Below, in pieces: positions 7,741 to 62,864 of a stretch of 64,000 bases of DNA. The notes under the pieces were generated by a model. The model worked only from the letters and a program-made list of their open reading frames with translations. It had not been told where the DNA came from and made no database searches. Numbering within the stretch: position 1 is the stretch's first letter; every line of letters starts with the position of its first letter. Made by a program: the position numbers and the translations under genes. Source of the DNA: a virus; IMG/VR virus record IMGVR_UViG_3300017991_000005, positions 62,001 to 126,000 of that record; one strand, 5' to 3'.

Positions 7741-9102
7741 TTAGGCGCTCACGCCGTTGAGGGCGTCGAACACCACCTTGCACTTGGAGCACTTGAAGTA
7801 GGTGTACCGGTGGTTCTTGTGGGCCTTGCCGCAGGAGGGGCAGGTGTCGGGGACGTTCCCCTCGGCGTCCTTCTCCCGGAGGACCTTGACCTTCGGAAAG
7901 CCCACCACCGTGGCGTCCTTGAGGTGCTTTTTGACCTTGCCGCGCAGGTCGAAGGTGTCGCCGAGGTTCAGGTCCGAGTGGGACCGGCGGAAGAAGACCG
8001 TGGTGCCGTCTTCGGCCTTGGCGACGTGGAAGAAGGAGACGCCCCAGTCGCTATCCTCCTCCCGCTGGAAGGTCAGGGTGTAGGTCCCCAGGTCTTGCTG
8101 CTTGGTGGAGACCTCCTTGTCCAAGCACTTCGATTCGACCTTGGGGGTCCTCTTCTCGGCCCGCTTCTTGAGGATGTCCGAGGCGATGAAAGCCGCGAAC
8201 CCCAGGGTGGTGTACTCGAAGTTCTGGCAGAGGTTGAAGAGGAACTCGGTCCACTTCTCCTCCAGGCGGGCGCGGGCCTCGGTGGCGTACTCGGAAAAGG
8301 CTTTCAGGAGCTCGTCCTTCCGGGCAGTCGCCTCGTCGAAGAGGGCCTCGCGGGCCTCCCGCTCCTCCCTGGGCTCGTTCGACTGGGGCTTGGAGAAGAG
8401 CACCGAGAGGTAGGTGGCCGTGCTCGGCTTGCCCCACTCCTCGCCCTTCCGCCTGGAGACGTACCCCCACTTCTCGACGTAGACCAGGGCGACCGGCACC
8501 GCGTACTCGGCGTCGTAGCCGTTGACGTTGAAGCCGCCGCGAGGGGCATCCCAGCCGTCCTCGTCGCCGAACTCCGCCTCGATTCCCCGGCAGAAGGCCG
8601 CGAGCTCCCGCTCCACGTCCACCCCGAAGAAGTCCTTGCAGCACTTGGAGCCGACCTGGGTGAGGGCCTCCTCGCCGTCCTTGAGGAAGAAGTAGAGGGT
8701 CTTCCGGTGGCGCCGGGTCTGGCAGTGGTCGCACCGGAGGAAGTCGGCCCCCTCGACGACCTCGCGGGTGATGGCCCCCTCCTCGGCCACCCAGAGGGAC
8801 TTCTTGTCCACGTCGTCGCGGGTGAGGACAGCCCGGAGGGTGTAGGGCCCGACCTTGTAGGTGGGGTAGGGGGCGGAGACCGTGTAGGTCACCGTCGAGG
8901 GCGGGGGGTCGGGCGCGAAATCGAGCGTCGTCTTCCCCGCGAGAGGATCATGGGTCAGGGTAGCCTTGAGGCCGGGGAACCGGGGCTCCAGCTCCGCGAC
9001 CTTGGCCTCGAACTGGGCCCTCCGGTAGCGGTCCACCTCGATGTTCGCCGTGAGGCCCGCGTCCGAGGTCAGGAAGTTCGGTTTCACTTTCCGTCGTGCC
9101 AT
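7741..9102 (-). CDS. Large phage protein with CxxC-type zinc modules, 453 aa
   Basis: Residues near 125-165 hold CDHCQTRRHRKTLYFFL followed by VGSKCCKDFFG. I have seen this arrangement in uncharacterised phage and plasmid proteins, but it has no named function. The C-terminus carries CPSCGKAHKNHRY and CSKCK, a second zinc ribbon. The region between is long, charged and partly helical. The protein has no visible catalytic motif. It is probably a nucleic-acid-binding protein. It is the sole large gene behind the promoter at 9145 and starts MARRKVKPNF. Confidence 0.65.
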   Translation of the reverse strand: MARRKVKPNFLTSDAGLTANIEVDRYRRAQFEAKVAELEPRFPGLKATLTHDPLAGKTTLDFAPDPPPSTVTYTVSAPYPTYKVGPYTLRAVLTRDDVDKKSLWVAEEGAITREVVEGADFLRCDHCQTRRHRKTLYFFLKDGEEALTQVGSKCCKDFFGVDVERELAAFCRGIEAEFGDEDGWDAPRGGFNVNGYDAEYAVPVALVYVEKWGYVSRRKGEEWGKPSTATYLSVLFSKPQSNEPREEREAREALFDEATARKDELLKAFSEYATEARARLEEKWTEFLFNLCQNFEYTTLGFAAFIASDILKKRAEKRTPKVESKCLDKEVSTKQQDLGTYTLTFQREEDSDWGVSFFHVAKAEDGTTVFFRRSHSDLNLGDTFDLRGKVKKHLKDATVVGFPKVKVLREKDAEGNVPDTCPSCGKAHKNHRYTYFKCSKCKVVFDALNGVSA

Positions 9103-9265: not shown

Positions 9266-9418
9266 CTATTTGCTGATCCGACGCACCAGAGCACCCAGGT
9301 GGGCGTCGAACGCCTCCGGGCGGGCCTCGTCGAGGCGCACGCGCCGGAGGGCCCTCCTCATGGCCGCTCGGTTGGGCCGGAGGAGGTCTTTAGGGCGTTG
9401 TTTGCCTTTGCGCGTCAT
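9266..9418 (-). CDS. Small basic protein, 50 aa
   Basis: An Arg-rich peptide beginning MTRKGKQRPKDLLRPNRAAM, with RRALRRVRLDEARPEAFDAH after it. Its ATG overlaps the stop of the YkgJ-like gene as ATGA, and there is no separate strong ribosome site, so translation is probably coupled. The charge suggests binding to nucleic acid or acidic partners. It is the last gene of the operon, directly before its terminator. Confidence 0.55.
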   Translation of the reverse strand: MTRKGKQRPKDLLRPNRAAMRRALRRVRLDEARPEAFDAHLGALVRRISK

Positions 9419-9903
9419 GGGTCTATTGTGTACCTCGCCGACCTCGATTCCGGGACGCTCTTGGGGTCCTTGAGGCGCCCCGCGAGGACCCCCAGGCGGA
9501 GAGAGGCGTCGGCGTACCGCTCCGCGTCCGCGAGGGTCCGGAGCTCGATGGCGTGCTCGGCCGCCCCGGCCGGGCCCCCTGGGACCGCCTCGCAGTCGCT
9601 CGGCGAGTAGTCCCGGCACGGGCCCGGCCTCGCCTCGTACACCTTGCAGACGTTCCCGGCGCCCAGGGCTCGGCACCGGGTGTCCACCTGGAGATACCAG
9701 TCGGTGCGCCTGGACGCCTGCACGTCCGCGTACACGAGGACTCCCTCGTGGGCCACCCACCACCGGATTTCCTCCCAGTCGTCCTCGTCCACCGGGGGCA
9801 TGATCCGCACGGTGATGTACCGGCAGCACAGGGCCCCCCTCGGCTTCCGGGTGCCCTTGATCCCGCACGAGGCGCAGGGCTCCGGTATGGCGGGCTTGCT
9901 CAT
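9415..9903 (-). CDS. YkgJ-like cysteine-cluster protein, 162 aa
   Basis: The N-terminus has CASCG (Cys10, Cys13) and CC at 26-27. Downstream are CRALGAGNVCKVYEARPGPC and CRDYSPSDCE. This pattern of CxxC, CC and a later xRPxxCRxY-like segment is typical of YkgJ/UPF0153 proteins, predicted to bind zinc or an iron-sulphur cluster. Their biochemical role is unsettled. It overlaps the upstream membrane-protein gene and the downstream 50-aa gene by ATGA, so it belongs to the four-gene operon headed by the PPDK-like protein. Confidence 0.72.
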   Translation of the reverse strand: MSKPAIPEPCASCGIKGTRKPRGALCCRYITVRIMPPVDEDDWEEIRWWVAHEGVLVYADVQASRRTDWYLQVDTRCRALGAGNVCKVYEARPGPCRDYSPSDCEAVPGGPAGAAEHAIELRTLADAERYADASLRLGVLAGRLKDPKSVPESRSARYTIDP

Positions 9904-10160
9904 AAGCCAGACGCCCAGATGAACACGCGCACGGCGAAGCCGAGCGCCAGGGCCACGAGGACCGCCCCCAGGCAGCACCAGATGACCGCACCGACGTAGG
10001 CCACCTCCCGCCTCGGCTCTGGCCTCGGAGGGGGTACGACCTCCTCCAGGACCGCATCCGGGACAAGTCGCTGGGCGTCCCGGAAGTCCTTGGGGTTCTC
10101 GTTCGGGTCCCCGTCGAACAGGATGTCGTGGGTCTGTGGGTTTATCAGACGGAGCCGCAT
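9900..10160 (-). CDS. Small single-pass membrane protein, 86 aa
   Basis: Residues 1-50 are soluble and charged (NPNEN.. DFRDAQRLVPDAV, then VVPPPRPEPRREV). Residues 54-84 are a strong hydrophobic helix (AYVGAVIWCCLGAVLVALAL). This is a C-tail-anchored layout with no signal peptide. Its start overlaps the 3' end of the PPDK-like gene by 16 bases and its stop overlaps the YkgJ-like gene by ATGA. It may place the operon products at the membrane; this is inference. Confidence 0.65.
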   Translation of the reverse strand: MRLRLINPQTHDILFDGDPNENPKDFRDAQRLVPDAVLEEVVPPPRPEPRREVAYVGAVIWCCLGAVLVALALGFAVRVFIWASGL

Positions 10161-12172
10161 GTTACCTTCCCTCGAACCGCTACCTGCGCCGCCGCGAGCC
10201 TCGCCATCTTGAGGCGTGAGGGGGAGCAGGAGATGTAGTCCACCCCCAGGTGGGCGAAGGCCGTGATGGACCTGGGGTCGGCCGCGTGCTCGCCGCACAC
10301 GCCGATCTCGATCTTCGGACGAACCGCCCGTGCCAGCTCGATGCCCAGTCGGATAAGACGCCCCACCCCCCGGACATCGAGCGTGGCGAACGGGTCGGCC
10401 TGGAGGACCCGAAGGTCCAAGTATCGTGGCATCCACTTCTCCGCGTCGTCGCGGGAGAAGCCCCAGACCATCTGGGTCAGGTCATTTGTCCCGAAGGACA
10501 TGAAGTCGGCGTGGTGGGCGATCTCATCGGCCGTGAGGCACGCCCTGGGAGTCTCGATCATGGTCCCGATGGGGACCGCCTTGGCAGCCCTCTTGCCGAG
10601 GACCTTCTCCAGGATGTCCTCCACGAGGGCCCGGAGAGTGATGAGCTCGCGCACCGACGCCACAAGGGGGACCATGATCCTGGGCCGCGCCCCTTCGACC
10701 TTCTTGGCCGCCTCGGCGACGGCCTGGGTCTGCATGGCGTAGACTTCCGGTGCGGTGATCCCCAGGCGGCAGCCCCGGTGCCCCAGCATGGGGTTCGACT
10801 CCCGAAGGGCCTCGGTGTAGCGTTGCACCGCCGTGTTCGGAATTCCCAGGTCGGCCGCTGCCCCCTCCCCCCAGAACTCGTGAAGCGGCGCGTCCAGAAG
10901 CCGGATTGTAACGGGCGCACCGTCCGCCCCCTCGAAGATGCCCTGGAAGTCTTCGCGCTGAAACTCCAGGAGCCGAATGAGGGCGGCCTTCCGGAGGGCG
11001 TCCGTGTCGGCCATGAGCATGCGCCGGAAAGGCTCGATCCTGTCCTTCCCGAAGAACTGGTGTTCGGTCCGGCAGAGCCCCACCCCCTGGGCACCGTACG
11101 CGCTTACGGCCTCTTCCGTGGCGTCCGGGGTGTCCACGTTGGCGTACACCCGCATGCCGGGCTCGACCCAGCGGAGCACCTCGTCGAGGATGGCCGTTCC
11201 GGCAAGGGCCGCCAGAGGGACCGCCCCCTCGAAAAGGAGGCCAGTCGATCCGTCCATGGAGATGGTGAGGTTCTCCCCACGTCGGCTGCCGATGCCCTTG
11301 GCGGAGACGATGCACGGGAGCCCCATCCCACGAGCCACCACGGCCGCATGGGAGGTCAAGCCCCCGCGTTCCGTCACGATCCCGGAGCAGTAGCGAAGAG
11401 CTGACACGTCCTCCGGGGAGGTCATCTTGACCACGAGGACGGCCCTGTCCCCGTGCTCGGCGTAGTGTTGGACCGCCTCATCCGCCCCCCACGCCACCGG
11501 CCCGATAGCAACCCCAGGCGCCGCCGGGGTCCCCTTGGCGATGGCGTCCTCCGGAATGGCGTCCAGCGTGGGCGTCTCCATGGAGGCCACGTCGCTGGGG
11601 GAAATACGAAGGAGGGCCTCCTCCTGGGTCAGGATGCCCTCGTCCACGAGGTCCCGGACGAACGAGAGCGCCGCGCCCACAGTCCGGACAAGGGGAAAGA
11701 CGGAGAGGACCTGAAACTCGTCGTCCGGGCCCTGGCGGACCGCCTCGACACGGGCCACGTCCTTGAGAACCCCCTCCACCACCCGGCAGAACTCCGCGAG
11801 ACGGTCCGAGTCTCCGCCGTATTCGGACAGATGCACCCAGTCGTCCCCGTCGTGGAACTCACCCACCGGCGTGCTATCCCCAGTCCTGGGGTCCCGCGTG
11901 CTCACGCTGACCCACTCGTGCGCCTCGGCCGGGGAACCTGGGAGGCGCTGCACGAGACACCACTCCAGCCCGCGCTCCTTGATCTCCTTCCGAAGACCTC
12001 GTGGCATCCCGGCGTACTCCCACACCCCGGCGACACCATAGACCCGGAAGACGCCCTTCTTCTTGAACTGGACATCCGGACCGGAGATGATCGTGGGCGC
12101 CGCGCTCACCCCGGCCGCTTGGAGGGCTGCCAGTCGTTTCCGCAGCCCCACGATATGCTGCTTCGTAAGCAC
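10145..12172 (-). CDS. Truncated pyruvate phosphate dikinase-like (PEP-utilising) enzyme, 675 aa
   Basis: The central phosphohistidine swivel domain is intact: GGLTSHAAVVARGMGLPCIV with His275. The C-terminal PEP/pyruvate TIM barrel is complete: RLLDAPLHEF, FGTNDLTQMVWGFSRDDA, CGEHAADP, and ISCSP with Cys649. PPDK is usually about 870-900 aa with a two-lobed ATP-grasp domain first. Here residues 85-165 match only its second lobe (STRDPRTGD, GEF, DDEF), and the LQTR element that carries a nucleotide-contacting Arg reads VLSVFP. ATP phosphorylation is therefore unlikely, while a PEP-pyruvate half-reaction or regulation is possible. GTG start with GGAG upstream. It has its own promoter at 12202. 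Confidence 0.88.
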   Translation of the reverse strand: MLTKQHIVGLRKRLAALQAAGVSAAPTIISGPDVQFKKKGVFRVYGVAGVWEYAGMPRGLRKEIKERGLEWCLVQRLPGSPAEAHEWVSVSTRDPRTGDSTPVGEFHDGDDWVHLSEYGGDSDRLAEFCRVVEGVLKDVARVEAVRQGPDDEFQVLSVFPLVRTVGAALSFVRDLVDEGILTQEEALLRISPSDVASMETPTLDAIPEDAIAKGTPAAPGVAIGPVAWGADEAVQHYAEHGDRAVLVVKMTSPEDVSALRYCSGIVTERGGLTSHAAVVARGMGLPCIVSAKGIGSRRGENLTISMDGSTGLLFEGAVPLAALAGTAILDEVLRWVEPGMRVYANVDTPDATEEAVSAYGAQGVGLCRTEHQFFGKDRIEPFRRMLMADTDALRKAALIRLLEFQREDFQGIFEGADGAPVTIRLLDAPLHEFWGEGAAADLGIPNTAVQRYTEALRESNPMLGHRGCRLGITAPEVYAMQTQAVAEAAKKVEGARPRIMVPLVASVRELITLRALVEDILEKVLGKRAAKAVPIGTMIETPRACLTADEIAHHADFMSFGTNDLTQMVWGFSRDDAEKWMPRYLDLRVLQADPFATLDVRGVGRLIRLGIELARAVRPKIEIGVCGEHAADPRSITAFAHLGVDYISCSPSRLKMARLAAAQVAVRGKVTCGSV

Positions 12173-12345: not shown

Positions 12346-13608
12346 CTACTTTCCGGCCGTCTTCTTGGTGGGCCGCTTGCCGCCCCTCGCGGCCTTCTTC
12401 TTGCCTCCCCTCGCGGCCTTCTTCTTGCCTCCCCCCACCTTCGTGGTCTTGGGCTTGCCGATGCCGTTCGCCTTGCACCACTCCGCCAGGGCGGCAACGA
12501 GAGAAGGGGCGCCCGGATCGAGATTGATGGAGTAGAGAAGCCCGGCGACCTGCCCCCGCAGGAAGATGATCGTACCGGAATTCTTCTCGTCCCACTTGGC
12601 GACCTCGGCCGCCACGAACTCGGCGAGCTGTTTTCCCTTGAGCTTCTTCTTCTTGCCCCTCACCCCCGCATCCGTCTCCGCCTTGGCCCTCTTCTCCTGG
12701 TACTTCGAGAGGGAGCCCTCGACCTTCCGGATCGCCCGCTGGACCTCCGCGACAGGGCGCCCCTCCAGAACGGGCTCCGACGACACCACGACCTCCGGTC
12801 CCCGCGCCCCCTCCACGGCCGTCTGCGGGGTGCGCTTGTGCTTGTCCGCCTGCTCCCTCGGCGTCTTCTTGTCCTCCCTCGGCTTCCTGGGCTCCTTCCG
12901 GCCGTCGGCCCACCGGGCGGTGCCGTTCTTGACGGCGTGCTCGATGTGGGCGCGGAAGAAAGGCTCGGTGAGCTCCCTGAGCTTGCCGATGAAGCGGCCC
13001 CGGTCCTCCGGGTGCACCCTGAGCAGCTCGTGGCACTTGCCCACCGTGATGTCCGTGTCGCCCCCGTCGAGGCCCTTCTGGAGGTCCTTCGGAAGGGCGA
13101 GGAGCTGCGTGTGGATCGAGACCCACCGCTCCGAGCGCCCCATGCGCTTTGCCACCTCTTTGGCGGTCTTGGTGCCCAGGGCCTCCATGGCACGGGCCAC
13201 GGCGCGGGCCTCCGTCATCGGGGTCATGTTGATCCGCCGCGTGGAGAGGTCGAACGCCGCGAGCACGAGGTCCTCCCGCGACCCCTGGACGTGGGTGATG
13301 GGAACCTCCTTGAGCCCCACCTCCTTGGCGGCGGCCAGCCGGTTGTAGCCGTCCACCACGAGGATGTCCCCGTTCCGCTCCGTCACGAGGATCGGGTCGT
13401 AGAAGCCGTGCTGCCGGATGGAAGCGACGAGCTCCAGGAACTCCTCGGACGCCTTGTCCACGTCCCTGAGCTTGAGGTCCTGGGCTTCCTTGAGCGAGGC
13501 CGTGGCGAGATACGACGCGCCCAGCCTGCGCTCCTTGGGCGGCGTGCTCCGGGCCGCCGTCCCGGCGCCCTTGCGAACGCCCTTTTTGACGCCCTTTTTC
13601 TTTCCCAT
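12346..13608 (-). CDS. ParB/Spo0J-like DNA-binding protein with lysine-rich tails, 420 aa
   Basis: Residues 55-130 form a ParB/Srx-type N-terminal domain, with SIRQHGFYDPILVTERNGD and DGYNRLAAAKEVG. The usual GERR arginine patch is replaced by DGYNR. Residues 145-180 contain a helix-turn-helix (TAKEVAKRMGRSERWVSIHT). The N-terminus (MGKKKGVKKGVRKGAG) and the C-terminus (repeated KKKAARGG) are lysine-rich. No ParA partner is nearby, so it may be a regulator or a chromosome organiser rather than a plasmid-type partition protein. The start follows AGGAGG. A perfect inverted repeat lies just upstream of its promoter. Confidence 0.82.
   Translation of the reverse strand: MGKKKGVKKGVRKGAGTAARSTPPKERRLGASYLATASLKEAQDLKLRDVDKASEEFLELVASIRQHGFYDPILVTERNGDILVVDGYNRLAAAKEVGLKEVPITHVQGSREDLVLAAFDLSTRRINMTPMTEARAVARAMEALGTKTAKEVAKRMGRSERWVSIHTQLLALPKDLQKGLDGGDTDITVGKCHELLRVHPEDRGRFIGKLRELTEPFFRAHIEHAVKNGTARWADGRKEPRKPREDKKTPREQADKHKRTPQTAVEGARGPEVVVSSEPVLEGRPVAEVQRAIRKVEGSLSKYQEKRAKAETDAGVRGKKKKLKGKQLAEFVAAEVAKWDEKNSGTIIFLRGQVAGLLYSINLDPGAPSLVAALAEWCKANGIGKPKTTKVGGGKKKAARGGKKKAARGGKRPTKKTAGK
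12383..12430 (-). repeat. Tandem 24-bp repeat coding KKKAARGG
   Basis: Two identical 24-bp units (12383-12406 and 12407-12430) in frame in the ParB-like gene encode two copies of the lysine-rich octapeptide, a clear sign of tail expansion by slippage. Confidence 0.85.
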
Positions 13609-15379: not shown

Positions 15380-15897
15380 CGGTCCTTGAGGTACTCCACG
15401 AAACCATCCTTCTCAGCCGCCAGGACCACGGCCGCCGCGTCGGCCGCGTCCTCGAAATGCTTCTGACCGGTGGGCCAGACGGCCATGGGCCACCGCTCCA
15501 TGACCACCCGCTGGGTGATCTTCTTGTCCGCCTTGGCGTTCCCTTTGAGCCCCACGGCCTTCTTGCACGCCCCCACGGTGTACCCGCGCCACTCCAGGGC
15601 GTCCTCCCGCGCAATCATGAACGCCATGGTGCGTCCCGTGGCGAGGGACTTCTCCGCTGCCGCGCTCTGCGCCCCGGCCGGGGCCTCGAACGCCACGCCG
15701 AGGGGCCCCTCGTCCCGGAAGGGCTGTAGGAAGTCGAGCACGAGGCCCATCCGCCGGAAGTCGTCCACCGTTGTTTTCAGACGGTTGTCCCGGTACGTGA
15801 TGGTGCCCCCGATCCGGTAGATGGAGTCCGCGTCCATGTCGTACAGGCACGCGCCGCATCCGGCGATGCCCATGTCGAGGGCGAGCAGGAGCCTCAT
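15361..15897 (-). CDS. RuvC-like Holliday-junction/branched-DNA resolvase, 178 aa
   Basis: The RNase H-fold catalytic pattern is present. It has an N-terminal LLLALDMGIAGCG (Asp8), a central GVAFEAPAGAQS (Glu) and a C-terminal HFEDAADAAAVVLA (Asp pair). In phages such enzymes cut branched DNA before or during packaging, and their position beside terminase and portal genes fits that role. Length matches RuvC (about 170 aa). The start overlaps the stop of the MuF-like gene by ATGA. Confidence 0.85.
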   Translation of the reverse strand: MRLLLALDMGIAGCGACLYDMDADSIYRIGGTITYRDNRLKTTVDDFRRMGLVLDFLQPFRDEGPLGVAFEAPAGAQSAAAEKSLATGRTMAFMIAREDALEWRGYTVGACKKAVGLKGNAKADKKITQRVVMERWPMAVWPTGQKHFEDAADAAAVVLAAEKDGFVEYLKDRWKHLL

Positions 15898-16940
15898 CGT
15901 TTCCCCCACGGGTTCGTGAGCGCCCCCCGCATACGGCGCAGCCTCCGGCGACCGCCCCCTCGGCGCTTCATGATCTCCTCCATGGCGGCCACCATCGAGG
16001 TTCTCTTCGGGAGGGCCCGCTTGCGTCGTGTGATCTCCCGCGAGTCGGCCTGCCGGACGAGGAGCCGGTGGCGGCAGTTTGTCCGGCACGGGGTCATCCC
16101 GGCGCGGGGGACAGCCGGGAGGAGCTCTTTGGGGAAGGGCTGCCGCTCGACGACGTACTGGCATCCCTCGCAGATACGCTTGTCCTTGATTCCAGGACCG
16201 CTCCAGTAAATGAGCGAGTTGTCGGGGAGGCCGGTGACGCGGGCCGAGTCGAACATGCTCTCCATGCTCTTGATGAACATCTCGATGCGCTCCTCGGCGT
16301 AGAAGCGGCGCCGAGGGGGCCTGGGAAGCTCCGAGACGCCCTTGGGCGCAAACTGGACCTCCCCGGCGGCGAGCTCTGCCACGAAGTTCGTCCAGTAGGC
16401 GATCTCTTGCCGCACCGCGCTCCGGAGCCACGACCGCTCCCACTGGGTCGGCACGATCTCCTTGGGCATGAACTTGACGAGGCCGCTCGCCTTGCGTCCG
16501 GTGTTGAAAATGCGCTCGTAGTAGGAGGCCAGGAGCTCCGCCGAAAGTCTCTGGAACTCCTGCGCCGTGTACGCCCCGGCCTCGAACTCGTGGGCCATCC
16601 GGAGGAGTTTCGAGCGGGCCTCCGCCTGGAGCTTGTCGAAGGTCTTGCGGGCTGCCGAGAGCTCGTACCGGACCTCGCGGGCGTAGGACGGCCTGGAGGC
16701 CATCTGGGAGTACCGCTTGCCCCGCGAGAAGGGCTCGAACGCCACGGTCCCCACCGCCTTGCTCTCGGCGATGGACTGCACGAGGAGCTGGTCCTCTTCC
16801 CATCTCCGGTAGGCATCGAGGGCCGGAAGGAGGTCCCGGCGCCCCCGGAAACCCAGGCCGGAGAACGGGTCGGAGGGGTCCCCCAGGCCGGGGTCCCCCT
16901 CGATGAAGAGGAACAGCTCGTCTACCTCTATCAATCGCAC
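15894..16940 (-). CDS. MuF-like phage head morphogenesis protein, 348 aa
   Basis: The C-terminal third contains ICEGCQYVVERQPFPKELLP followed by TPCRTNCRHRLLV. It resembles the Cys/His-rich end of Mu gpF/SPP1 gp7 minor head proteins, which bind the portal and are packaged in small numbers. The N-terminal two thirds are mostly helical. The tail is strongly basic (RRGGGRRRLRRM). I use the GTG at 16940 because GAGGAA precedes it. Its place two genes after the portal is the usual one for this family. Confidence 0.7.
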   Translation of the reverse strand: MRLIEVDELFLFIEGDPGLGDPSDPFSGLGFRGRRDLLPALDAYRRWEEDQLLVQSIAESKAVGTVAFEPFSRGKRYSQMASRPSYAREVRYELSAARKTFDKLQAEARSKLLRMAHEFEAGAYTAQEFQRLSAELLASYYERIFNTGRKASGLVKFMPKEIVPTQWERSWLRSAVRQEIAYWTNFVAELAAGEVQFAPKGVSELPRPPRRRFYAEERIEMFIKSMESMFDSARVTGLPDNSLIYWSGPGIKDKRICEGCQYVVERQPFPKELLPAVPRAGMTPCRTNCRHRLLVRQADSREITRRKRALPKRTSMVAAMEEIMKRRGGGRRRLRRMRGALTNPWGKR

Positions 16941-17400: not shown

Positions 17401-20379
17401 TCACCGCCGGGACACGGGCGAGGCCCCGGATCGCCTGGAGGCGCCTCTGCGCCCGCTTGAGCTCCTCGCCCCGCACCATGTTGGCACCGGCAGCGATGGC
17501 TTGAGGTTCTCCCAGGCTTTCAGGTCTTCGGCGCTCGCCAGCCCCTCGACAGCCTCCTTGAGCTCCTTCTGGGCCGCTTCCCGGCCGCCCTTCATGGTGT
17601 TGACCACCCCTCCGGTTCCCACCGAGGGCGTCCCCTCCATGATGAGAGTCAGCCCGGCGAGGGCCTTGGGGTCCTCCCTGATCGCCTCAACGGCCTCCGT
17701 GGCCGCTTCCTTGCTCCCGGACCGGAGCTTCTCCACCATGTCCTTCGGGAGACGCCCCACCTCCTCCAGGACGTAGGTGGTCCACACGTCCGGGTTGAAC
17801 TGCATGTCCTGTCCCAGGCGCGAGAGCCGGTCCATGAGGTCCACGCGCATCTGGAGCAGCTCAGCCCGCTCGATCTCGGCGAACGCGCTCACGGGGCTCA
17901 TGTGGAGCTCGAAAGCGTTCTCCTCGTCGAAGGGGTCCAGGTTGTGGAAAGCGAGGTCGATCATGCACGCCCGGACGAGCTCGACGAGAAAGGCCCGCTG
18001 GATGCGCGTGGCCGTCTTGGCGAACCGAACGTCCTGCTTCCCCAGGCTCATGTTCGGCTCGTACTGGCCCTCGAAGCCCAGATAGCCCTTCGGGATTCTC
18101 AGGCCGCCCAGGAGGCGGCCCAGGATGATCTCGTAGTCGCGGAAGAGGTCGTTCCCCTGGGTCGCCGGAAGGTTCTCGATGCGGGTCTGATTGTCCTGGC
18201 CGATGGGCAGGATGAGGTCCCGCGCCTCGTGGAGGGGCATCCCCTGGCTCGTGAAGAGGCCGGACACCGGGTCCACGTTGTGCTCCTTGTAGATGCGATC
18301 TTCCCACTCCTTGCAGTTGTGGGTGAGGATGTTATTCGCCACGAAGGACTCGCCGCCCTCGACGGTGAAGTCGATGAGGGTCTGCACGCCGAGAGCTTCG
18401 CTTCCGACGAACTTGGCCGTGGAGAAGCCCTCCATCGGCCCGTACTTCTTGCAGATTTCCATCGCCTCCACAGAGACCGCACCCCCGGCGATAGGAGCTC
18501 CGAAGAGAAGGAGCTTCACTCCCTTGGCAAGGCGCGTCCAGGTCAGGAGCTTCTGGCCGCACTTGAGTTGGTAGATACGCGAGCGGGGTACGTCGAATGC
18601 CGCCGCGAGCATCATGGGAGGCACCCCGGCCTCGATCATCTCACAGACGAAACGAGCCGACTCCGGCGTCCCTTGACGATCCTTGTTCGCCGGTGTCTTG
18701 TTTCCCTGCTTGCACGGCAGCCGGAAGCCCACTTGCACCAGATAGCGGTCGGCATCCTTCCCGGAGATTGTCAGCATGAAGACGGGGCTGCCCTGGGCAA
18801 CGTACTCCTCCAAAGTGCTGTGAATCCCGACACGCCAGAGGGCGCGGTGGGCGTACTCCAGGGGAAGACGGTCGCGCATGCGAATTGAAACGCAATCCTT
18901 CCCTCCGTGCCCCTCGGCGTCCATAAGGCCCTGAACGTAGGACAGGATACCGTTCATTCCCCCCGCCATGAGCCAGCGGTCGTGGGCCGGGATTTTCCCG
19001 GTCTTTGCTCCGGGAGAGAACCCCGCCTCCGCGAGCGCCCTGGTCAGGACAGGACTCTTGACGCACAGGCGTCCTTGCGACCACCCCCGCGTCCAGCCAT
19101 CCGGGTCGATCTCATCGACAATCCTGGCAATCTCGGCGTAGCCCTCCGCCCGTTCGTGAGCGTCGAGCATGAAGACGGAGTAGTCCGTCTGATTCCTGCG
19201 CTGCCAATGACCATCACCGACGAAGAGACCCACGAGGTAAGCGAGGTCGTCGTCGGGCACGAACGCCTCATCCGGCTCGTCGGCCACCACCACGTCGTCA
19301 CCCGGCTCCAGGTGTTCGAGCCGCTTCCAGTCGATCCCCTGCTCCGGGGTCCAGATGGCGACGCGGTGATCCCCGCTTGCGTCCAGCATCACGCCGCGCT
19401 CGAACGTCCACCGGGAAGTCTCCTTCGCCACCTTTCGGGCCTTGGTGATGGTCTCCCACCCACGAACGGACCGGACGAGGACGTTTTCCCCCTCCTCCAC
19501 CCTGGCCCACACCGTATCGGCATGCTGTACGCCGTCTTCCGTTGTGATCCAGGAATCCGGGGCCACGCACGCCTCATAGGCTTCCGCGAGGGCCATCCCG
19601 CCCACGTCCATGAGGATTAGGAGCCGGTCCGGGCGCCGGAGGAGCCTCTGGAGGACGATCTGGTCCTCGATGAGCTGGAGCTGCCTCCACTTCTCGCGGC
19701 TCCCCCAAAGGAGCGACGACCCATAGATGTCGTTCCGCTTCTGCCCCCGGAGCCGGAAATGGAGGACCTTGTAGAACGGAACGGCGTTGTCCTGCACCCT
19801 CGTAGGGCGCCCCTCGGCGTCGCACGGGGAGAACGCCTCCAGGCGGCCGTCCTCGTCCTCGATCCGGGCCACGTCCCACGGATCGTAGCCCCGAATGTGG
19901 AGGATGCCCGCGTTCTTGGCCGCCACCACGCGCTCGAACTGGTCCCCCATCTTGCAGGTGGCTCGGACGATGGGGAAGGCCACGTCCTCGACTTGCATGC
20001 GGTCGAGGCACCGCAGAATGATCTTCTTCACGTCGCCGTTCCTGGCCGTCGGCCAGACGGTGCGCCCGTTCTCGAAATCCCGCTGGGTGGCGTCCTCGCC
20101 GTAGGCGTCCAGAACCGACGTGATGAGAGGGTCCATGTCCATCTCGCGGTAGATGGCGTAGAGCTCCAGCCGCGTGTACTGCCGCTGGGTGCCGATGATC
20201 TGGTCCACCCAGTCGCCGGACCGTGAGCCCCGCTCGATGGGGTCCCTGGAGCGGGCCTTGTCCCTGGGCTGGGGCATCGGGTAGCTGCGCCCCATCTCCG
20301 GGCGCCGCGTGAGGCCCTGGATGCGGGCGAGGTTGGACCACGGAAACATCACCATTTCGAGTAGGTCGGCTGCTCTCAT
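17401..20379 (-). CDS. T4 gp20-like portal protein interrupted by an intein, 992 aa precursor
   Basis: The two exteins (residues 1-270 and 689-992) join to a 574-aa protein of portal size. The C-extein has the T4 gp20-like pattern LILPIGQDNQTRIENLPATQ, then GLRIPKGYLGFEGQYEPNM and RFAKTATRIQRAFLVELVR. The intein (271-688) begins at Cys271 and ends at His-Asn688 before Cys689. The start overlaps the stop of terminase by four bases. The last 32 residues look like out-of-frame sequence: a -1 frame gives a more natural helix (GEELKRAQRRLQAIRGLARV) that ends in an ATGA overlap with the HU-like gene. Confidence 0.88.
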   Translation of the reverse strand: MRAADLLEMVMFPWSNLARIQGLTRRPEMGRSYPMPQPRDKARSRDPIERGSRSGDWVDQIIGTQRQYTRLELYAIYREMDMDPLITSVLDAYGEDATQRDFENGRTVWPTARNGDVKKIILRCLDRMQVEDVAFPIVRATCKMGDQFERVVAAKNAGILHIRGYDPWDVARIEDEDGRLEAFSPCDAEGRPTRVQDNAVPFYKVLHFRLRGQKRNDIYGSSLLWGSREKWRQLQLIEDQIVLQRLLRRPDRLLILMDVGGMALAEAYEACVAPDSWITTEDGVQHADTVWARVEEGENVLVRSVRGWETITKARKVAKETSRWTFERGVMLDASGDHRVAIWTPEQGIDWKRLEHLEPGDDVVVADEPDEAFVPDDDLAYLVGLFVGDGHWQRRNQTDYSVFMLDAHERAEGYAEIARIVDEIDPDGWTRGWSQGRLCVKSPVLTRALAEAGFSPGAKTGKIPAHDRWLMAGGMNGILSYVQGLMDAEGHGGKDCVSIRMRDRLPLEYAHRALWRVGIHSTLEEYVAQGSPVFMLTISGKDADRYLVQVGFRLPCKQGNKTPANKDRQGTPESARFVCEMIEAGVPPMMLAAAFDVPRSRIYQLKCGQKLLTWTRLAKGVKLLLFGAPIAGGAVSVEAMEICKKYGPMEGFSTAKFVGSEALGVQTLIDFTVEGGESFVANNILTHNCKEWEDRIYKEHNVDPVSGLFTSQGMPLHEARDLILPIGQDNQTRIENLPATQGNDLFRDYEIILGRLLGGLRIPKGYLGFEGQYEPNMSLGKQDVRFAKTATRIQRAFLVELVRACMIDLAFHNLDPFDEENAFELHMSPVSAFAEIERAELLQMRVDLMDRLSRLGQDMQFNPDVWTTYVLEEVGRLPKDMVEKLRSGSKEAATEAVEAIREDPKALAGLTLIMEGTPSVGTGGVVNTMKGGREAAQKELKEAVEGLASAEDLKAWENLKPSLPVPTWCGARSSSGRRGASRRSGASPVSRR
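18316..19569 (-). mobile_element. Intein with LAGLIDADG homing-endonuclease domain, 418 aa
   Basis: Splicing blocks are complete. Block A is CVAPDSWITTEDG, block B is GDHRVAIW, and the C-terminal block is FVANNILTHN followed by Cys. Two LAGLIDADG-like helices occur at residues 382-391 (LVGLFVGDGH) and 481-491 (YVQGLMDAEGH) of the precursor, so the endonuclease may still be active. An extra helix-turn-helix (MLAAAFDVPRSRIYQLK) lies between the endonuclease and the C-terminal splicing block. It inserts in a central conserved portion of the portal. Confidence 0.93.
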
Positions 20380-22391
20380 CTCTTGGCAACCCCCTGTAGC
20401 TGGTCGAGGTACTTGTCGTACTTCGAGGCCCTTGTCGAGTCGCCCCCGCCCCGGTGCTCCGGAGGCACGTCACCCGGCTTGATCTTGTCCGTGAGGCACC
20501 CGTAGGCCGCCCCACACAAAGCGTCTGCCACGTCCTTCGACTCCCCCGCCCTGTGGTCCACCTTATCGGCCTCCACGTCGTGCTCCAGGCCGATGAGCTC
20601 CATCCGGAGGAGCTCGTTCGGAGGGGCTTTGATCCGCCTCTCCGCCAGGGCCCGGCGAAGGGTCTTGTAGGGGATGGCCGTGCGGTCCACCGACTGCACG
20701 TCCGCGTTGAACTTCGCGCCCCGGAGCAGTTGAATCGAATCGACGGACTCCCAGGAGTCGTAGGTCACCCGGCGAACCCAGAAGCCGATATTCCGCAAGA
20801 AGATGATGAACTTCCGGATTTTCTCGAAGTCTATTTCCTCCCCCCTCGGCCCGGCGGTGATTGCCAGCGCGAAGTCTACCTCCAGCTCCTTGACCACCGT
20901 GATGATGGGCACGCCGTCCTCTTCGCGGGGGCGCCCCTCGTCGTCCTCCTCCTTAGTGATGAAGTGGCTCGACGGGTGGAGCATGGAAATCCCGGCCGCG
21001 TCCTTGTTCTTGGCGAGGTCGATATGGATGTACCGGGGCGCCGAGGCGTGCCGGGTGGGCTTCCATCGGTTCATGTGCACCCGGCACAGGCGCTTGACGT
21101 TGAACGCCTCGATGACCTGCCGACTGTCCTGGACGAAGATGGGGATGCGCTCGGCGTCGAACGCCGCCGGGAGGGAGGCGTCCACCATGTCATGAACGAG
21201 CTGCTTGTTCCCGAAGAAGGGGGTGAACCCCCGCGTGCTGCGGCCCGCGATGTCCCGGATGGAGCCGTCGAGGTCCTCGACGAACGCCTTGTAATGCTCG
21301 ACAGGGACGGGGACCACCTCGGCAGTGTCGTCTTCTTTGTCGATCTCCCGGATGTCGAGGACCTCCACTCCGTCCGCGTCGAACTCCACCTCGTCGAGGA
21401 GCTTGGAATCCCGGAACTCGTCGCCGAGCTGGACCCGGAACTTCATGCCCGAATAGATCGTCTTCTCGTCGAAGTCCCAGAAGGCCGCATCCACGACGTA
21501 CACTCCAGGGAGCTTTTTGACCTTCCGGAGCCGGGCCTCCAGGTAGTCCGTCTCGGTTCGCTTCGAGGAGATGAGCACCACGAACCCCGCCACCACGCCG
21601 GACTCGGTGCGGAAACGGGACTCGGTGCGCCTGGAGACGGCCGCCACGAGGTCGTGGGCCTTGCGCTTCGTCCCCTTCCCCTGCTCGTAGAAGTTGAGCT
21701 CGTCCATGGAGATAGCGAAGAGGTTGTGCCCGATGGCGTGGAGCTCCTTCGAGCCCACGAGGACCCGGATGCCCTTGTCGAATACGAGGGAGTTCCCGTC
21801 GTTCGGGACCCTTGGAAAGGCATAGCGGAAGTAGGGGCTCTGGTCGATGGCCTGATCTCGGAGGTCGTAGAACCCGATCTCCTCGGCATGGTCCTTCGTG
21901 ATGGCGTACACCCCGAAGACTATCTTCGTGTTATCGGCGAGGCCGAAGTACCGGGCCGGATTCTTGAGGCACGAGAGCCAATAAATTTTGTAGGGGAGGA
22001 TGAGGGCGTTCGCTACGAACGACTTGCCGAACCCGATGGCCCCCGTGAAGATCACCTCGGAGACGTTCCGCTGGGGGTCGCAGATGTTGAGCACGTGCGG
22101 CCACCACGCCTTGTAAAGGTTCTTCCCCATGTGGCCGAGGTAGTCGGGCTCGGTGAAGAAGACCTCCGGGGGCACCGGGATATGGTCGTAGTCCTGGGCG
22201 TAGAGGGCCTCCAGCATGGCCTCGTCGCCGTCGGAAAGGCCCTCGAACAGTCGGATAAACCAGTCCCGCTGGATGGGGGTTAGCTGGGAGAAGAGGCGGT
22301 CGCTTCCCTTCTCGATGTCCAGGAAGACCGCTTCGAGCTGCTCCTCAGTCAGAGGAGCTGTCGCTATCTTCTCCCTCTTCGGATGCTGCAT
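20376..22391 (-). CDS. terL: Terminase large subunit, 671 aa
   Basis: The N-terminal ATPase has Walker A GAIGFGKS (residues 117-124) and Walker B FAISMDE (226-231). The C-terminal nuclease shows YIHIDLAKNKDAAGIS (first Asp), VTYDSWES and DVADALCG (last Asp), the RNase H-type triad of TerL enzymes. It translocates DNA into the procapsid and cuts concatemers. The length is within the family range. It overlaps the small subunit gene by 47 bases and the portal gene by ATGA. Confidence 0.92.
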   Translation of the reverse strand: MQHPKREKIATAPLTEEQLEAVFLDIEKGSDRLFSQLTPIQRDWFIRLFEGLSDGDEAMLEALYAQDYDHIPVPPEVFFTEPDYLGHMGKNLYKAWWPHVLNICDPQRNVSEVIFTGAIGFGKSFVANALILPYKIYWLSCLKNPARYFGLADNTKIVFGVYAITKDHAEEIGFYDLRDQAIDQSPYFRYAFPRVPNDGNSLVFDKGIRVLVGSKELHAIGHNLFAISMDELNFYEQGKGTKRKAHDLVAAVSRRTESRFRTESGVVAGFVVLISSKRTETDYLEARLRKVKKLPGVYVVDAAFWDFDEKTIYSGMKFRVQLGDEFRDSKLLDEVEFDADGVEVLDIREIDKEDDTAEVVPVPVEHYKAFVEDLDGSIRDIAGRSTRGFTPFFGNKQLVHDMVDASLPAAFDAERIPIFVQDSRQVIEAFNVKRLCRVHMNRWKPTRHASAPRYIHIDLAKNKDAAGISMLHPSSHFITKEEDDEGRPREEDGVPIITVVKELEVDFALAITAGPRGEEIDFEKIRKFIIFLRNIGFWVRRVTYDSWESVDSIQLLRGAKFNADVQSVDRTAIPYKTLRRALAERRIKAPPNELLRMELIGLEHDVEADKVDHRAGESKDVADALCGAAYGCLTDKIKPGDVPPEHRGGGDSTRASKYDKYLDQLQGVAKR

Positions 22392-39141: not shown

Positions 39142-39666
39142 CTATTCCCCTCCTGCCGTCCCTTCCTGGGCCGCCACCGCCGCGATGACCTGGACTTGGG
39201 CACGGGTCTGTGGGACTCCCGTGTCCTTCACGAGGCGGAGCGGGCCCTGTCGGGCCATGTAGGAGGCGATGCAGCCGAGGGCCATGCTCGTTCGCCCGCA
39301 CCCGGCGGAGCAGTGGACGAGCACGCGGCTGCCTTTTGATTCGAGTATCCCGGCCACCTGGGCGGCGAGCCTTGTGGCGAACTCGACGCGCATGGGCTTG
39401 TGGTCGGGGACGGGGAAGCGGAGGACGACGAGCCCTCCCTTCTGGTAGAGGCGCACGAGGTCCCGGCCGTAGTAGTAGAGCTGCTCCCCGTCTGTCAGGA
39501 GACAGACTACGTGGGTGATCCCCAGGTCCTTCCAGCCCTCGATGGTGGTCTCGACGGCACGTCTCCCGACCTCCCCCAGGGGGTAGCCTGGACGGGCGGC
39601 TCGGAAGAGCTTTCCCTTGCTGCCGCTAATCGGTCTTGCTTTGCCGTTTATCACGACGCCATCCAT
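39142..39666 (-). CDS. Tyrosine/dual-specificity phosphatase-like protein, 174 aa
   Basis: The signature VLVHCSAGCGRTSMALG is the CX5R phosphatase loop, with the catalytic Cys at residue 119 and Arg at 125. THVVCLLTDGE and RFPVPDHKPMR occupy the places of the strand before the WPD-like loop and the acid loop (Asp in VPDH). It may dephosphorylate host proteins or RNA 5' ends. I use the ATG at 39666 (16-base overlap with the upstream gene); an ATG at 39714 is possible. Neither has a good ribosome site. Confidence 0.82.
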   Translation of the reverse strand: MDGVVINGKARPISGSKGKLFRAARPGYPLGEVGRRAVETTIEGWKDLGITHVVCLLTDGEQLYYYGRDLVRLYQKGGLVVLRFPVPDHKPMRVEFATRLAAQVAGILESKGSRVLVHCSAGCGRTSMALGCIASYMARQGPLRLVKDTGVPQTRAQVQVIAAVAAQEGTAGGE

Positions 39667-60645: not shown

Positions 60646-62864
60646 TAGAACCCTCCTTCGAGGGCGGGCGGGCGCACCCGCTCGTCCCGCGAGAGCAGAT
60701 TCACGATCTTTCCGAGCTGCCCGACCGCCTGCTTGAGGAGGTCTTTCAGCTCCAGGTCCGTTTCAACCTTCATGGGGCCCATTTCCACGGGCGCCATGAG
60801 GGGTAGAACGCTCGCCATGAACCTCTGGATGTAGGTCTTCTCCAGCGGGAGCACCATTTCGGGAATCCCGCGCTCCACGAGGGTCGTCGCCGTCGGCTCC
60901 GTCACGATACCGCCCTCTTGGAGGTAGCTTAGAGAGCCCAGGCCGAGGTTTCCTCCCAGCGTCCCACCGATCACCGGCACCTTCCACCGGAGGAGGCTAT
61001 TGATTGTGTCGATAATCGTGCTATTGATGAGGTCTTTTATGGTCTCCACAGGGGCCGTTACGAGCCCCTTTATCGTGTCGATGAATTTCCCGGCCATTTT
61101 TCCGACCGATTTGAGCCCCACAAGCTCCAGGAGGCTCATTATCTTCTCTTTGATCCAGTCCATGGCCTTGACGAAAGACGTTTTTATGGTGTCCACGACC
61201 CCGAAAAAGAAGTCTTTGACCTTCTTGAAGCCCGATTCGAGCGTCGTCCAGGCCCAGGTGATGGCGTTCCAGGCCGCATCCTTCACGCTTTTCCACACGC
61301 CCACGACCACCTTGCCCACTTCCTTCCAGAAGGAGAGCATGTTTTTCACGATCCCCACGACCTTCTCGAAGATCGGGACGACGAGCGCCTTCACGATCTT
61401 GTAAATCATCTTCCAGATATTGATGTAAATCGTGAAAGCTCGGATGATCGGCGGTCCGATGAAGTCCCAGATGGCCTTCACCACCCCTTTCAGGATGCCC
61501 CACGCCCGCTCCAGGATGTCAGCGAGCCCGGCCCAGGCGTCCTTGATGATGGTCATCCACTCTTCCAGGCCGATAGCGAGTATCTCCGCGAGCCACCCCA
61601 CCACCTTCGCCAGGGGGTCGATCACCACCATGAGGACTTTGGCGATCTGGAGCCATGCCTTGACCATCCACATCATGTACTTCGCCTGGGTCTCGATGGA
61701 CATCTTGAGGAGCAGCCCCACGATCTTCACGAGAGGGGGCACGATGGGGAGCAGCGCGTCCACGAGCTCGACGAAAATCTCCACGAGCTCCTGAATGAGC
61801 GGCGCCTGATCCTCGGCCATCTTGGCGAAGAGGTCGATGATCGGCATGATCGCCGGTTCGAGAGTGTCCAGGAAGGTGTCCGCTACCCTGAAAATCGCCC
61901 CGATTATCACCCCCAGGAGGGGCTCCAGGCGCTCGAATCCGGCCACCATGATCGGGACGAGCTTCTCGACGAGCTTCGAGATGATGTCCACGGCCTTGGT
62001 GAGAATGGGAATGATGGCCGTTTCGAGGATCATGTTCACGACCCGGAGGATGATCGGTAGGACCTTCTCGGCGAGGTCCGTGAGGGAGGAAATGATGCGG
62101 CCCAGAGGCTCCTTGAGACCGTCCCAGAGCTTCTTGATGGCCCCGAAGACGGTCGAGATCACCCCTCCCCCCTCGCTCAGGCCGGACACGAAGTCCCCCA
62201 CGAGGGGAATCAGGTTCGTCACGATGTCCACGATGGGGGTCAGGGCTTCGGAGAGCATCGGCGCGAGCTTCACGGAGAGCTTGTAGAACTCCTCGGTCAG
62301 CGGCGCCAGGGTGGTCTTGAAAGCGTTCTGGAGGACCTCGATTCCGGGGCCGATGGTGTCCTTGAGCGTGTCCCAGACAAAGCCCAGGGTGCGCTTCCCC
62401 GCCTCCATCCCGGCCCCGAAGATGGCGCCGACTCCTCCGATCTTGATGATCTGGCCGAGGGCCCCTCGAACGAAGTTGAGCTGCCCGAAGAGGCCCTCGG
62501 ATTCCTTCTTCATTCTGCGGGCCGACTTGCTCGCCCGCATTGTCTCCGTGTCGAACTCCCCCATGGCGCCCGCCGCGTCTCGCGCCACCTTTTTGACCTC
62601 GGTAACGGAGGAGGTCAGGGCCATGGTCAGGGACCGAAGGATCATGTTCGTCTGATTGAACCCGGCCTCGATGGTCGTAGCGACAGTATCCGTGGCGGTC
62701 CCCATGCTCTGGGTGGCCTTTTCGGCACTCTCGGCGAGGTCCTCGACGTGAACCTCGGCCGCTTTGGTGGCGGCTTCGACGTTCTCCTCGGCTTTGGTGA
62801 CCACGCCACTGGCGAGGTCCGTCGCCGAGAAGACGAAACCGAGATTTTCAACGGCGTCGGCCAC
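60645..62864 (-). CDS. Tail tape measure protein, 739 aa
   Basis: The N-terminal 130 residues form a charged coiled coil (ENVEAATKAAEVHVEDLAES). The long middle is built of amphipathic and hydrophobic helices with many Ile/Val/Met and the repeat-like LTPIVDIVTNLIPLVGDFVS, LVEKLVPIMVAGFERLEPLL. GTG start after GGGAGGCGCGGA. The length sets tail length. It is upstream of hub and spike, the expected order. Confidence 0.85.
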   Translation of the reverse strand: MADAVENLGFVFSATDLASGVVTKAEENVEAATKAAEVHVEDLAESAEKATQSMGTATDTVATTIEAGFNQTNMILRSLTMALTSSVTEVKKVARDAAGAMGEFDTETMRASKSARRMKKESEGLFGQLNFVRGALGQIIKIGGVGAIFGAGMEAGKRTLGFVWDTLKDTIGPGIEVLQNAFKTTLAPLTEEFYKLSVKLAPMLSEALTPIVDIVTNLIPLVGDFVSGLSEGGGVISTVFGAIKKLWDGLKEPLGRIISSLTDLAEKVLPIILRVVNMILETAIIPILTKAVDIISKLVEKLVPIMVAGFERLEPLLGVIIGAIFRVADTFLDTLEPAIMPIIDLFAKMAEDQAPLIQELVEIFVELVDALLPIVPPLVKIVGLLLKMSIETQAKYMMWMVKAWLQIAKVLMVVIDPLAKVVGWLAEILAIGLEEWMTIIKDAWAGLADILERAWGILKGVVKAIWDFIGPPIIRAFTIYINIWKMIYKIVKALVVPIFEKVVGIVKNMLSFWKEVGKVVVGVWKSVKDAAWNAITWAWTTLESGFKKVKDFFFGVVDTIKTSFVKAMDWIKEKIMSLLELVGLKSVGKMAGKFIDTIKGLVTAPVETIKDLINSTIIDTINSLLRWKVPVIGGTLGGNLGLGSLSYLQEGGIVTEPTATTLVERGIPEMVLPLEKTYIQRFMASVLPLMAPVEMGPMKVETDLELKDLLKQAVGQLGKIVNLLSRDERVRPPALEGGF

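Follow-up and report, generated by a model that had tools for sequence, protein, structure and literature searches.

A putative PEP-fed phosphohistidine protein derived from pyruvate phosphate dikinase in a lineage of large tailed phages

The window analysed, a stretch of 64,000 nucleotides, corresponds to positions 62001–126000 of a phage record of 131,295 bp with 65% G+C, and on the gene map one strand holds 141 of the 143 predicted genes. Genes for a portal, a large terminase, DNA polymerase I, DnaB, a tape measure protein and a contractile baseplate are found in the window and a Gp23-type capsid and a tail sheath are encoded in the remainder of the record, which is, judged by these genes, that of a large tailed phage. 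Positions 1–62000 of the record also encode an AdoMet decarboxylase, a radical-SAM protein, an N6/N4 DNA methylase, glycosyltransferases, a calcineurin-like phosphoesterase and DUF5662 and collagen-repeat proteins.

An open reading frame for a protein of 675 aa resembling pyruvate phosphate dikinase (PPDK) is present on the minus strand at 10145–12172, where a preliminary description of the locus had placed it (Table 1). The gene is located within the phage backbone, with a ParB-like gene on one side and a small membrane-protein gene on the other, and has a GTG start with GGAG 9 nt upstream. Its open frame comprises 677 codons, running to a stop 2 codons upstream of the start, and 174 bp separate it from the end of the upstream ParB-like gene, whose position fixes its limit. 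With the stop so near and the neighbour 174 bp away there is no overlooked N-terminus, and a missed start or a split gene could be ruled out, also by the absence of PPDK_N from the record. The motifs identified in the protein are VLSVFP (aa 155–160), GGLTSHAAVVARG (aa 270–282), FGTNDLTQ (aa 560–567), CGEHAADP (aa 626–633) and ISCSP (aa 647–651).

Table 1. Location of the PPDK-like gene, its predicted domains and other features in the window and in related phage records (record handle before the colon)
Feature	Position	Strand	Basis or remark
PPDK-derived putative PEP-fed phosphohistidine protein, 675 aa	10145..12172	-	ORF, motifs, Pfam/NCBIfam/PDB matches, AlphaFold, Foldseek
Predicted miniature pseudo-ATP-grasp domain, residues 1–165	11678..12172	-	profile comparison, residue tables, AlphaFold, Foldseek
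PPDK-type helical linker, residues 166–210	11543..11677	-	TIGR01828 and PDB alignments
Phosphohistidine swivel domain, residues 211–322	11207..11542	-	PF00391, residue table, alignment
PEP/pyruvate TIM barrel, residues 323–675	10148..11206	-	PF02896, residue tables
86-aa protein with C-terminal transmembrane helix	9900..10160	-	start overlaps PPDK-like gene by 16 nt; candidate partner
CxxCxxCC (YkgJ-like) protein	9415..9903	-	PF03692, E 3.8e-4, just under cut-off
ParB-like protein	12346..13608	-	directly upstream; Pfam/PHROGs
Portal	17401–20355	-	syntenic marker
Large terminase	20376–22391	-	syntenic marker
DSP-type protein phosphatase, VHCSAGCGRT	39142..39666	-	at 27 kb distance; retained in each of the three PEP-type phages
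GC(M/N/L)GGxGRTG phosphatases	L011:4773-5336, L010:5444-5914, L146:7084-7608, L152:12720-13268, L154:6470-6946		
CsrA-like small proteins	L011:4302-4769, L146:6524-6832, L147:10657-10938, L152:12238-12720, L154:5995-6477		

The same gene, with 70–71% identity, was found in a 116-kb IMG/VR phage (L007/G001), the terminase of which is 82% identical and which has its gene order in common with the window phage over at least 13 kb. A distant phage type (L033/L038) harbours a 702-aa version, 39–40% identical and of the same architecture; its terminase is 44%, its portal 46–47% and its counterpart of the gene at 15894–16934 34% identical to those of the window phage, and the PPDK-like gene is again situated after these three. 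Since the synteny with portal and terminase is kept, the comparison indicates that the gene is inherited with the backbone of the phage lineage. The PEP-type proteins, as they are referred to from here on, represent three distinct phage types, all metagenomic and with linear records that may be incomplete, and a tree of swivel and barrel places them in one clade (support 100/98) apart from cellular PPDKs. Between the two close phages dN/dS was about 0.23 overall, below 0.5 in every segment and lowest in the barrel (0.15), which indicates purifying selection on the gene; the fastest-evolving part is the N-terminal domain, residues 1–125 being 45–50% identical and the barrel 81%. A pseudogene could be ruled out by the dN/dS and the intact frames, and an assembly or sequencing accident by the two independent relatives and the presence of the architecture in three phage types.

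When 84,980 cellular genomes were searched with patterns of the N-terminal domain no relative was found, and a PPDK-pattern scan of cellular genomes gave 80 loci, all full-length PPDKs except three broken or contig-edge ORFs. Single-protein and portal queries against IMG/VR gave no match, and the PPDK matches on viral contigs other than L033/L038 and the close relative were taken as host DNA (58–97% to cellular PPDKs). Neither the bacterial genomes searched nor the annotated phages contained the PEP-type architecture.

Pfam places PEP-utilizers (PF00391) at residues 243–311 (E 5.8e-23) and PEP-utilizers_C (PF02896) at residues 340–665 (E 1.6e-71), in accordance with the phosphohistidine domain and full PEP/pyruvate barrel of the preliminary description, and all catalytic residues checked in them are conserved. 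The GGxTSHAAVVARG swivel domain of PPDK is present, with T273 and H275 corresponding to T453 and H455 of Clostridium symbiosum PPDK, and the ~12-residue insertion carried by the swivel of cellular PPDKs is lacking. In the barrel R368, E370, R424, E540, N563, D564, C626 and H629 are equivalent to R561, E563, R617, E745, N768, D769, C831 and H834, among them the five residues (R561, R617, E745, N768 and C831) by which a PPDK barrel is recognised, and with its barrel complete the protein is not a short PPDK of the VadK/phage-LV6 kind, which consists of ATP-grasp and swivel only. Residue tables comparing the phage proteins with 33 and with 77 cellular PPDKs, the latter invariant or nearly so at the compared sites, revealed that all three PEP-type proteins keep the equivalents of H455, R561, E563, R617, D620, E745, N768, D769, C831 and H834.

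The best solved relatives in the PDB are PPDKs, and a full-length AlphaFold model (pLDDT 86.7, pTM 0.87) gave PPDK as top Foldseek matches with a query TM of up to 0.81. Among the NCBIfam models PPDK (TIGR01828) is far ahead with 535 bits, followed by the PEP synthase models TIGR01418 and PRK06464 (169 and 184 bits, cut-offs 740 and 598) and PTS enzyme I (TIGR01417, 148 bits, cut-off 342), all of them below their cut-offs. For PPDK the score falls short of the family cut-off of 843 because the ATP domain is missing, the alignment starting only at model position 303 of 865. A mimic of enzyme I, feeding host HPr and thereby hijacking the PTS, would make use of the PEP barrel and phosphohistidine logic common to enzyme I, but we find this scarcely credible given the bit scores; moreover the protein has no HPr-binding enzyme-I N-domain and no HPr gene was found in the three phage records searched, and for these last two reasons HPr is not favoured as acceptor. 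Another proposal of the preliminary description, a dominant partner, would use the barrel, which is the dimer interface of PPDK, to form mixed dimers with host PPDK and so alter or block the host enzyme. Barrel and swivel are indeed ~40–45% identical to cellular PPDKs and are modelled as PPDK, but such a role presupposes a host with PPDK, and a merely interfering subunit needs no perfectly kept catalytic residues in its barrel, which makes it very unlikely.

In the N-terminal region no PPDK_N was found by Pfam, nor did the domain appear at E<=1 anywhere in the 131,295-bp record, in a search for which 13 of 14 control genomes were positive; it is absent from all four phage records (the window phage, the 71% relative and the contigs of the third type). 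Profile comparison proposes residues 58–154 to be homologous to PPDK 211–334 (prob. 79%, E 1.7e-5), and a PDB sequence search with the N-domain as query gave no match. AlphaFold, using an alignment of two phage relatives only, modelled residues 1–165 with pLDDT 86 in the order helix, hairpin, helix, strand, sheet, helix, sheet, and Foldseek matched this model with D-Ala-D-Ala ligases, PurK and other ATP-grasp enzymes (prob. 1.00, TM 0.5–0.6) and, among viral models, first with gp139 of Bacillus phage G. The ~165 residues are consequently predicted to be a pseudo-ATP-grasp and not an empty stump, that is an ATP-grasp shrunk to about half the normal size from which the ATP residues are gone.

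Of the residues K22, R92, D321, E323, Q335 and R337 that PPDK_N should hold, only E323 could be recognised in the window protein: the K22 region is absent, the R92 region is absent or not reliably alignable, and D321, Q335 and R337 are replaced by R, S and F. Across the three PEP-type proteins K22 is absent, Q335 has become S, S and G, D321 R, L and E and R337 F in every case, and these four residues are invariant among the cellular PPDKs compared, while E323 is kept in all three and E279 in two. The LQTR element is replaced by LSVF in two phages, in the window protein as part of the VLSVFP described earlier, and by ITGVF in the third. The loss of the ATP-binding lobe claimed by the preliminary description thus stands for the N-terminal portion of PPDK with K22 and VRSGA and for the ATP residues but not for the fold, since a small ATP-grasp is predicted to remain; the full ATP-grasp fold in residues 1–165 that this description had held against its own claim is there in the prediction, not in function.

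As E323 is kept, and E279 in two of the three, residual nucleotide binding by this domain may be possible. One could go further and regard the protein as a still complete PPDK, its miniature ATP-grasp binding ATP or another NTP by non-standard residues, for which the predicted fold and the E323 equivalent would speak. We consider this highly improbable as the losses above include K22 and R337, classical mutation sites of PPDK (K22A, PDB 1jde; R337A, 2dik), whereas VRSSA..MPGMMD and LQTR are retained in the compact ATP-grasp that gp139 of phage G possesses. With the PEP-site residues kept and the ATP residues lost, the protein should be capable of the PEP half-reaction but not of the ATP half-reaction, in line, at residue level, with the PEP-only half-enzyme first suggested.

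The missing half could be supplied in trans, the swivel exchanging phosphate with the ATP-grasp of another protein, e.g. host PPDK, which would give the full PPDK reaction under phage control by a two-component logic like that of HpeHI. HpeHI is a precedent for working ATP-grasp/swivel splits (PMC12167813), and linker and swivel are still PPDK-like. However, no PPDK_N is encoded by the window phage, the 71% relative or the contigs of the third type, and the place where such a partner should dock is taken by the pseudo-ATP-grasp, and a split dikinase therefore seems quite unlikely.

When analysing the neighbouring genes, a 52% identical counterpart of the 86-aa transmembrane protein was found in L121/L007, and in L033 a small protein with a C-terminal transmembrane helix (7874–8101), without clear sequence similarity to it, follows the PPDK-like gene. 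The gene of the YkgJ-like protein is next in the operon, with a 4-nt overlap with the transmembrane-protein gene, and is kept in the 71% relative. The DSP-type phosphatase may, on weak grounds, be a functional companion: such phosphatases are present in nine of ten swivel-bearing phages and in none of five terminase relatives without swivel, all these phages being related to each other. Because of this relatedness, and because phage G is an exception and the phosphatases belong to two different subfamilies, the association is only a lead.

The overlapping gene also bears on the possibility that the protein is a PEP drain or sensor without acceptor, in which His~P is hydrolysed, converting PEP to pyruvate and Pi, or its charged state is only read by a partner; as a drain it would starve PEP-using pathways (PTS, aromatic and cell-wall synthesis). 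The complete PEP half-site and the lack of an acceptor domain recognisable by sequence agree with this, and the small tail-anchored product of the overlapping gene could localise the PPDK-like protein or read it out. A pure drain, on the other hand, needs no maintained ATP-grasp-like domain, yet the domain is under purifying selection, and the PPDK phosphohistidine is not known to be hydrolysed fast, which also counts against a drain. We regard a drain or sensor without acceptor as unlikely. A PEP sensor and a phosphate sink, both put forward in the preliminary description, may nevertheless be conceivable roles.

Relatives of the window terminase (about 27–33% identity) occur in phages of Vibrio, Stenotrophomonas, Rhizobium and Rhodobacter whose genomes include a gene annotated as pyruvate phosphate dikinase; for the phages of Vibrio, Rhizobium and Rhodobacter this gene lies a few kb at most from the related terminase. 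These ATP-type proteins (Vibrio LV6, Ares1, SIO-2 and others, Stenotrophomonas DLP_3/5, Rhizobium RHph_TM16, Rhodobacter RcZahn) contain PPDK_N with every ATP residue and a swivel but no PEP barrel, whereas no swivel domain was found in the terminase relatives of Maribacter, Streptomyces and Gordonia phages, Rhodobacter RcDurkin and Pseudomonas SM1. Like the PEP-type they are PPDK-derived swivel phosphohistidine proteins, but with the complementary truncation. A common origin of the two is not supported, as they do not group on a swivel tree, which has several long branches.

In five of the records (L010, L011, L146, L147 and L152; MT110073, OP918262, MW677529, MN988459 and MG720309) the annotated PPDK is without PEP-utilizers_C and without R561/E745/N768/C831, and these proteins should thus not perform the full reaction of their annotation; for their last ~180 aa there was no match in Pfam. 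In five different phages the ATP-type PPDK is followed, at a distance of one or a few genes, by a DSP-type phosphatase whose motif, GC(M/N/L)GGxGRTG, is unusual and which in SIO-2 is annotated as thymidylate synthase; PPDK and phosphatase may possibly form a kinase/phosphatase pair. The small protein encoded immediately behind the ATP-type PPDK resembles a divergent CsrA (E 2.8e-6 in LV6; 0.004 in RcZahn, below the cut-off), an identity which, if true, would connect the gene with the regulation of carbon metabolism; as a partner it was set aside, being seen weakly and in ATP-type phages. Bacillus phage G encodes, beside an FtsZ-like gene, gp139 (L153:3713-4810), a compact PPDK of 365 aa with a shortened ATP-grasp in which VRSSA..MPGMMD and LQTR are intact, a swivel and no barrel, by its residues a minimal ATP-charged phosphohistidine protein. 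Phages thus retain one half of PPDK, be it that for ATP or that for PEP, and the element in common is, as far as the residues tell, a phosphorylatable histidine on a mobile domain. Since the ATP-type keeps its ATP residues without a barrel, the conserved product common to both groups would be His~P.

Compared with PPDKs such as those of C. symbiosum (1kbl) and maize (1vbg), a family which also gives the best Foldseek matches, the phage protein has a collinear linker, swivel and barrel, ~40% identical, with the catalytic His and all checked PEP-site residues, but ~210 N-terminal residues of the ATP domain are missing, the rest of it is shrunk and K22, D321, Q335 and R337 are gone. VadK (Rv1127c) of Mycobacterium tuberculosis is a PPDK reduced to ATP-grasp and swivel which autophosphorylates on histidine and regulates methylcitrate enzymes through binding (PMC13400623); it likewise combines one half-reaction with a phosphohistidine, but keeps the ATP half where the phage protein keeps the PEP half. 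PTS enzyme I has the PEP barrel and phosphohistidine and uses no ATP, as the phage protein, which however lacks the EI N-domain/HPr-binding domain, is PPDK-type in sequence and linkers and has a pseudo-ATP-grasp instead. In HpeHI, where swivel and ATP-grasp modules are recombined with new substrate domains (PMC12167813), and in rifampin phosphotransferase (PMC4844700) the swivel is again combined with alternative donor or acceptor domains, but these enzymes use ATP and their substrate domain is unrelated to the PEP barrel. That the protein is of a new kind, as first claimed, accordingly applies to the PEP-half architecture, seen in none of the bacterial genomes or annotated phages searched, and not to truncated PPDK phosphohistidine proteins as such, the opposite half being known from VadK (PMC13400623) and the short PPDKs of phages.

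Taken together, we think it somewhat more likely than not that the protein acts as a PEP-driven phosphohistidine phosphotransferase, derived from PPDK, in a lineage of large tailed phages. In the cell PEP would phosphorylate His275 with release of pyruvate, and the His~P swivel, since it could not regenerate ATP, would dock elsewhere, most likely at the face of the pseudo-ATP-grasp, where a small molecule or a protein of phage or host might replace ATP as acceptor or, alternatively, the His~P/His state might be read out as a PEP:pyruvate signal. By analogy with VadK and HpeHI His~P would be used on something other than AMP/PPi, the first candidate acceptors being the overlapping membrane protein (9900–10160), the DSP phosphatase (39142–39666) and host proteins. 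Binding of the acceptor at the pseudo-ATP-grasp is a guess, as this domain evolves fastest and has no obvious pocket conserved across the three. More tentatively, and with somewhat less than even confidence, we suggest a phage phosphorelay in which a PEP-charged PPDK derivative passes phosphate by His~P and a repurposed pseudo-ATP-grasp to a target of phage or host, while the ATP-charged opposite half serves the same end in other phages, so that selection would act on His~P and not on PEP/ATP interconversion.

The opposite truncation is already known in phages and mycobacteria; for the PEP half of PPDK the observation is confirmed here and widened to a conserved trait of a phage lineage, not an oddity of one phage. 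According to reports, phage PPDK genes assist metabolism by converting PEP and pyruvate for energy gain, but judged by sequence the residues that the full reaction requires are found in neither of the two kinds examined, one appearing to be ATP-only and that of the window PEP-only. If the PEP-fed reading is true, the protein would mirror VadK and present the two half-reactions of PPDK cleanly separated by nature, and it would point to a phosphorelay in phage takeover.
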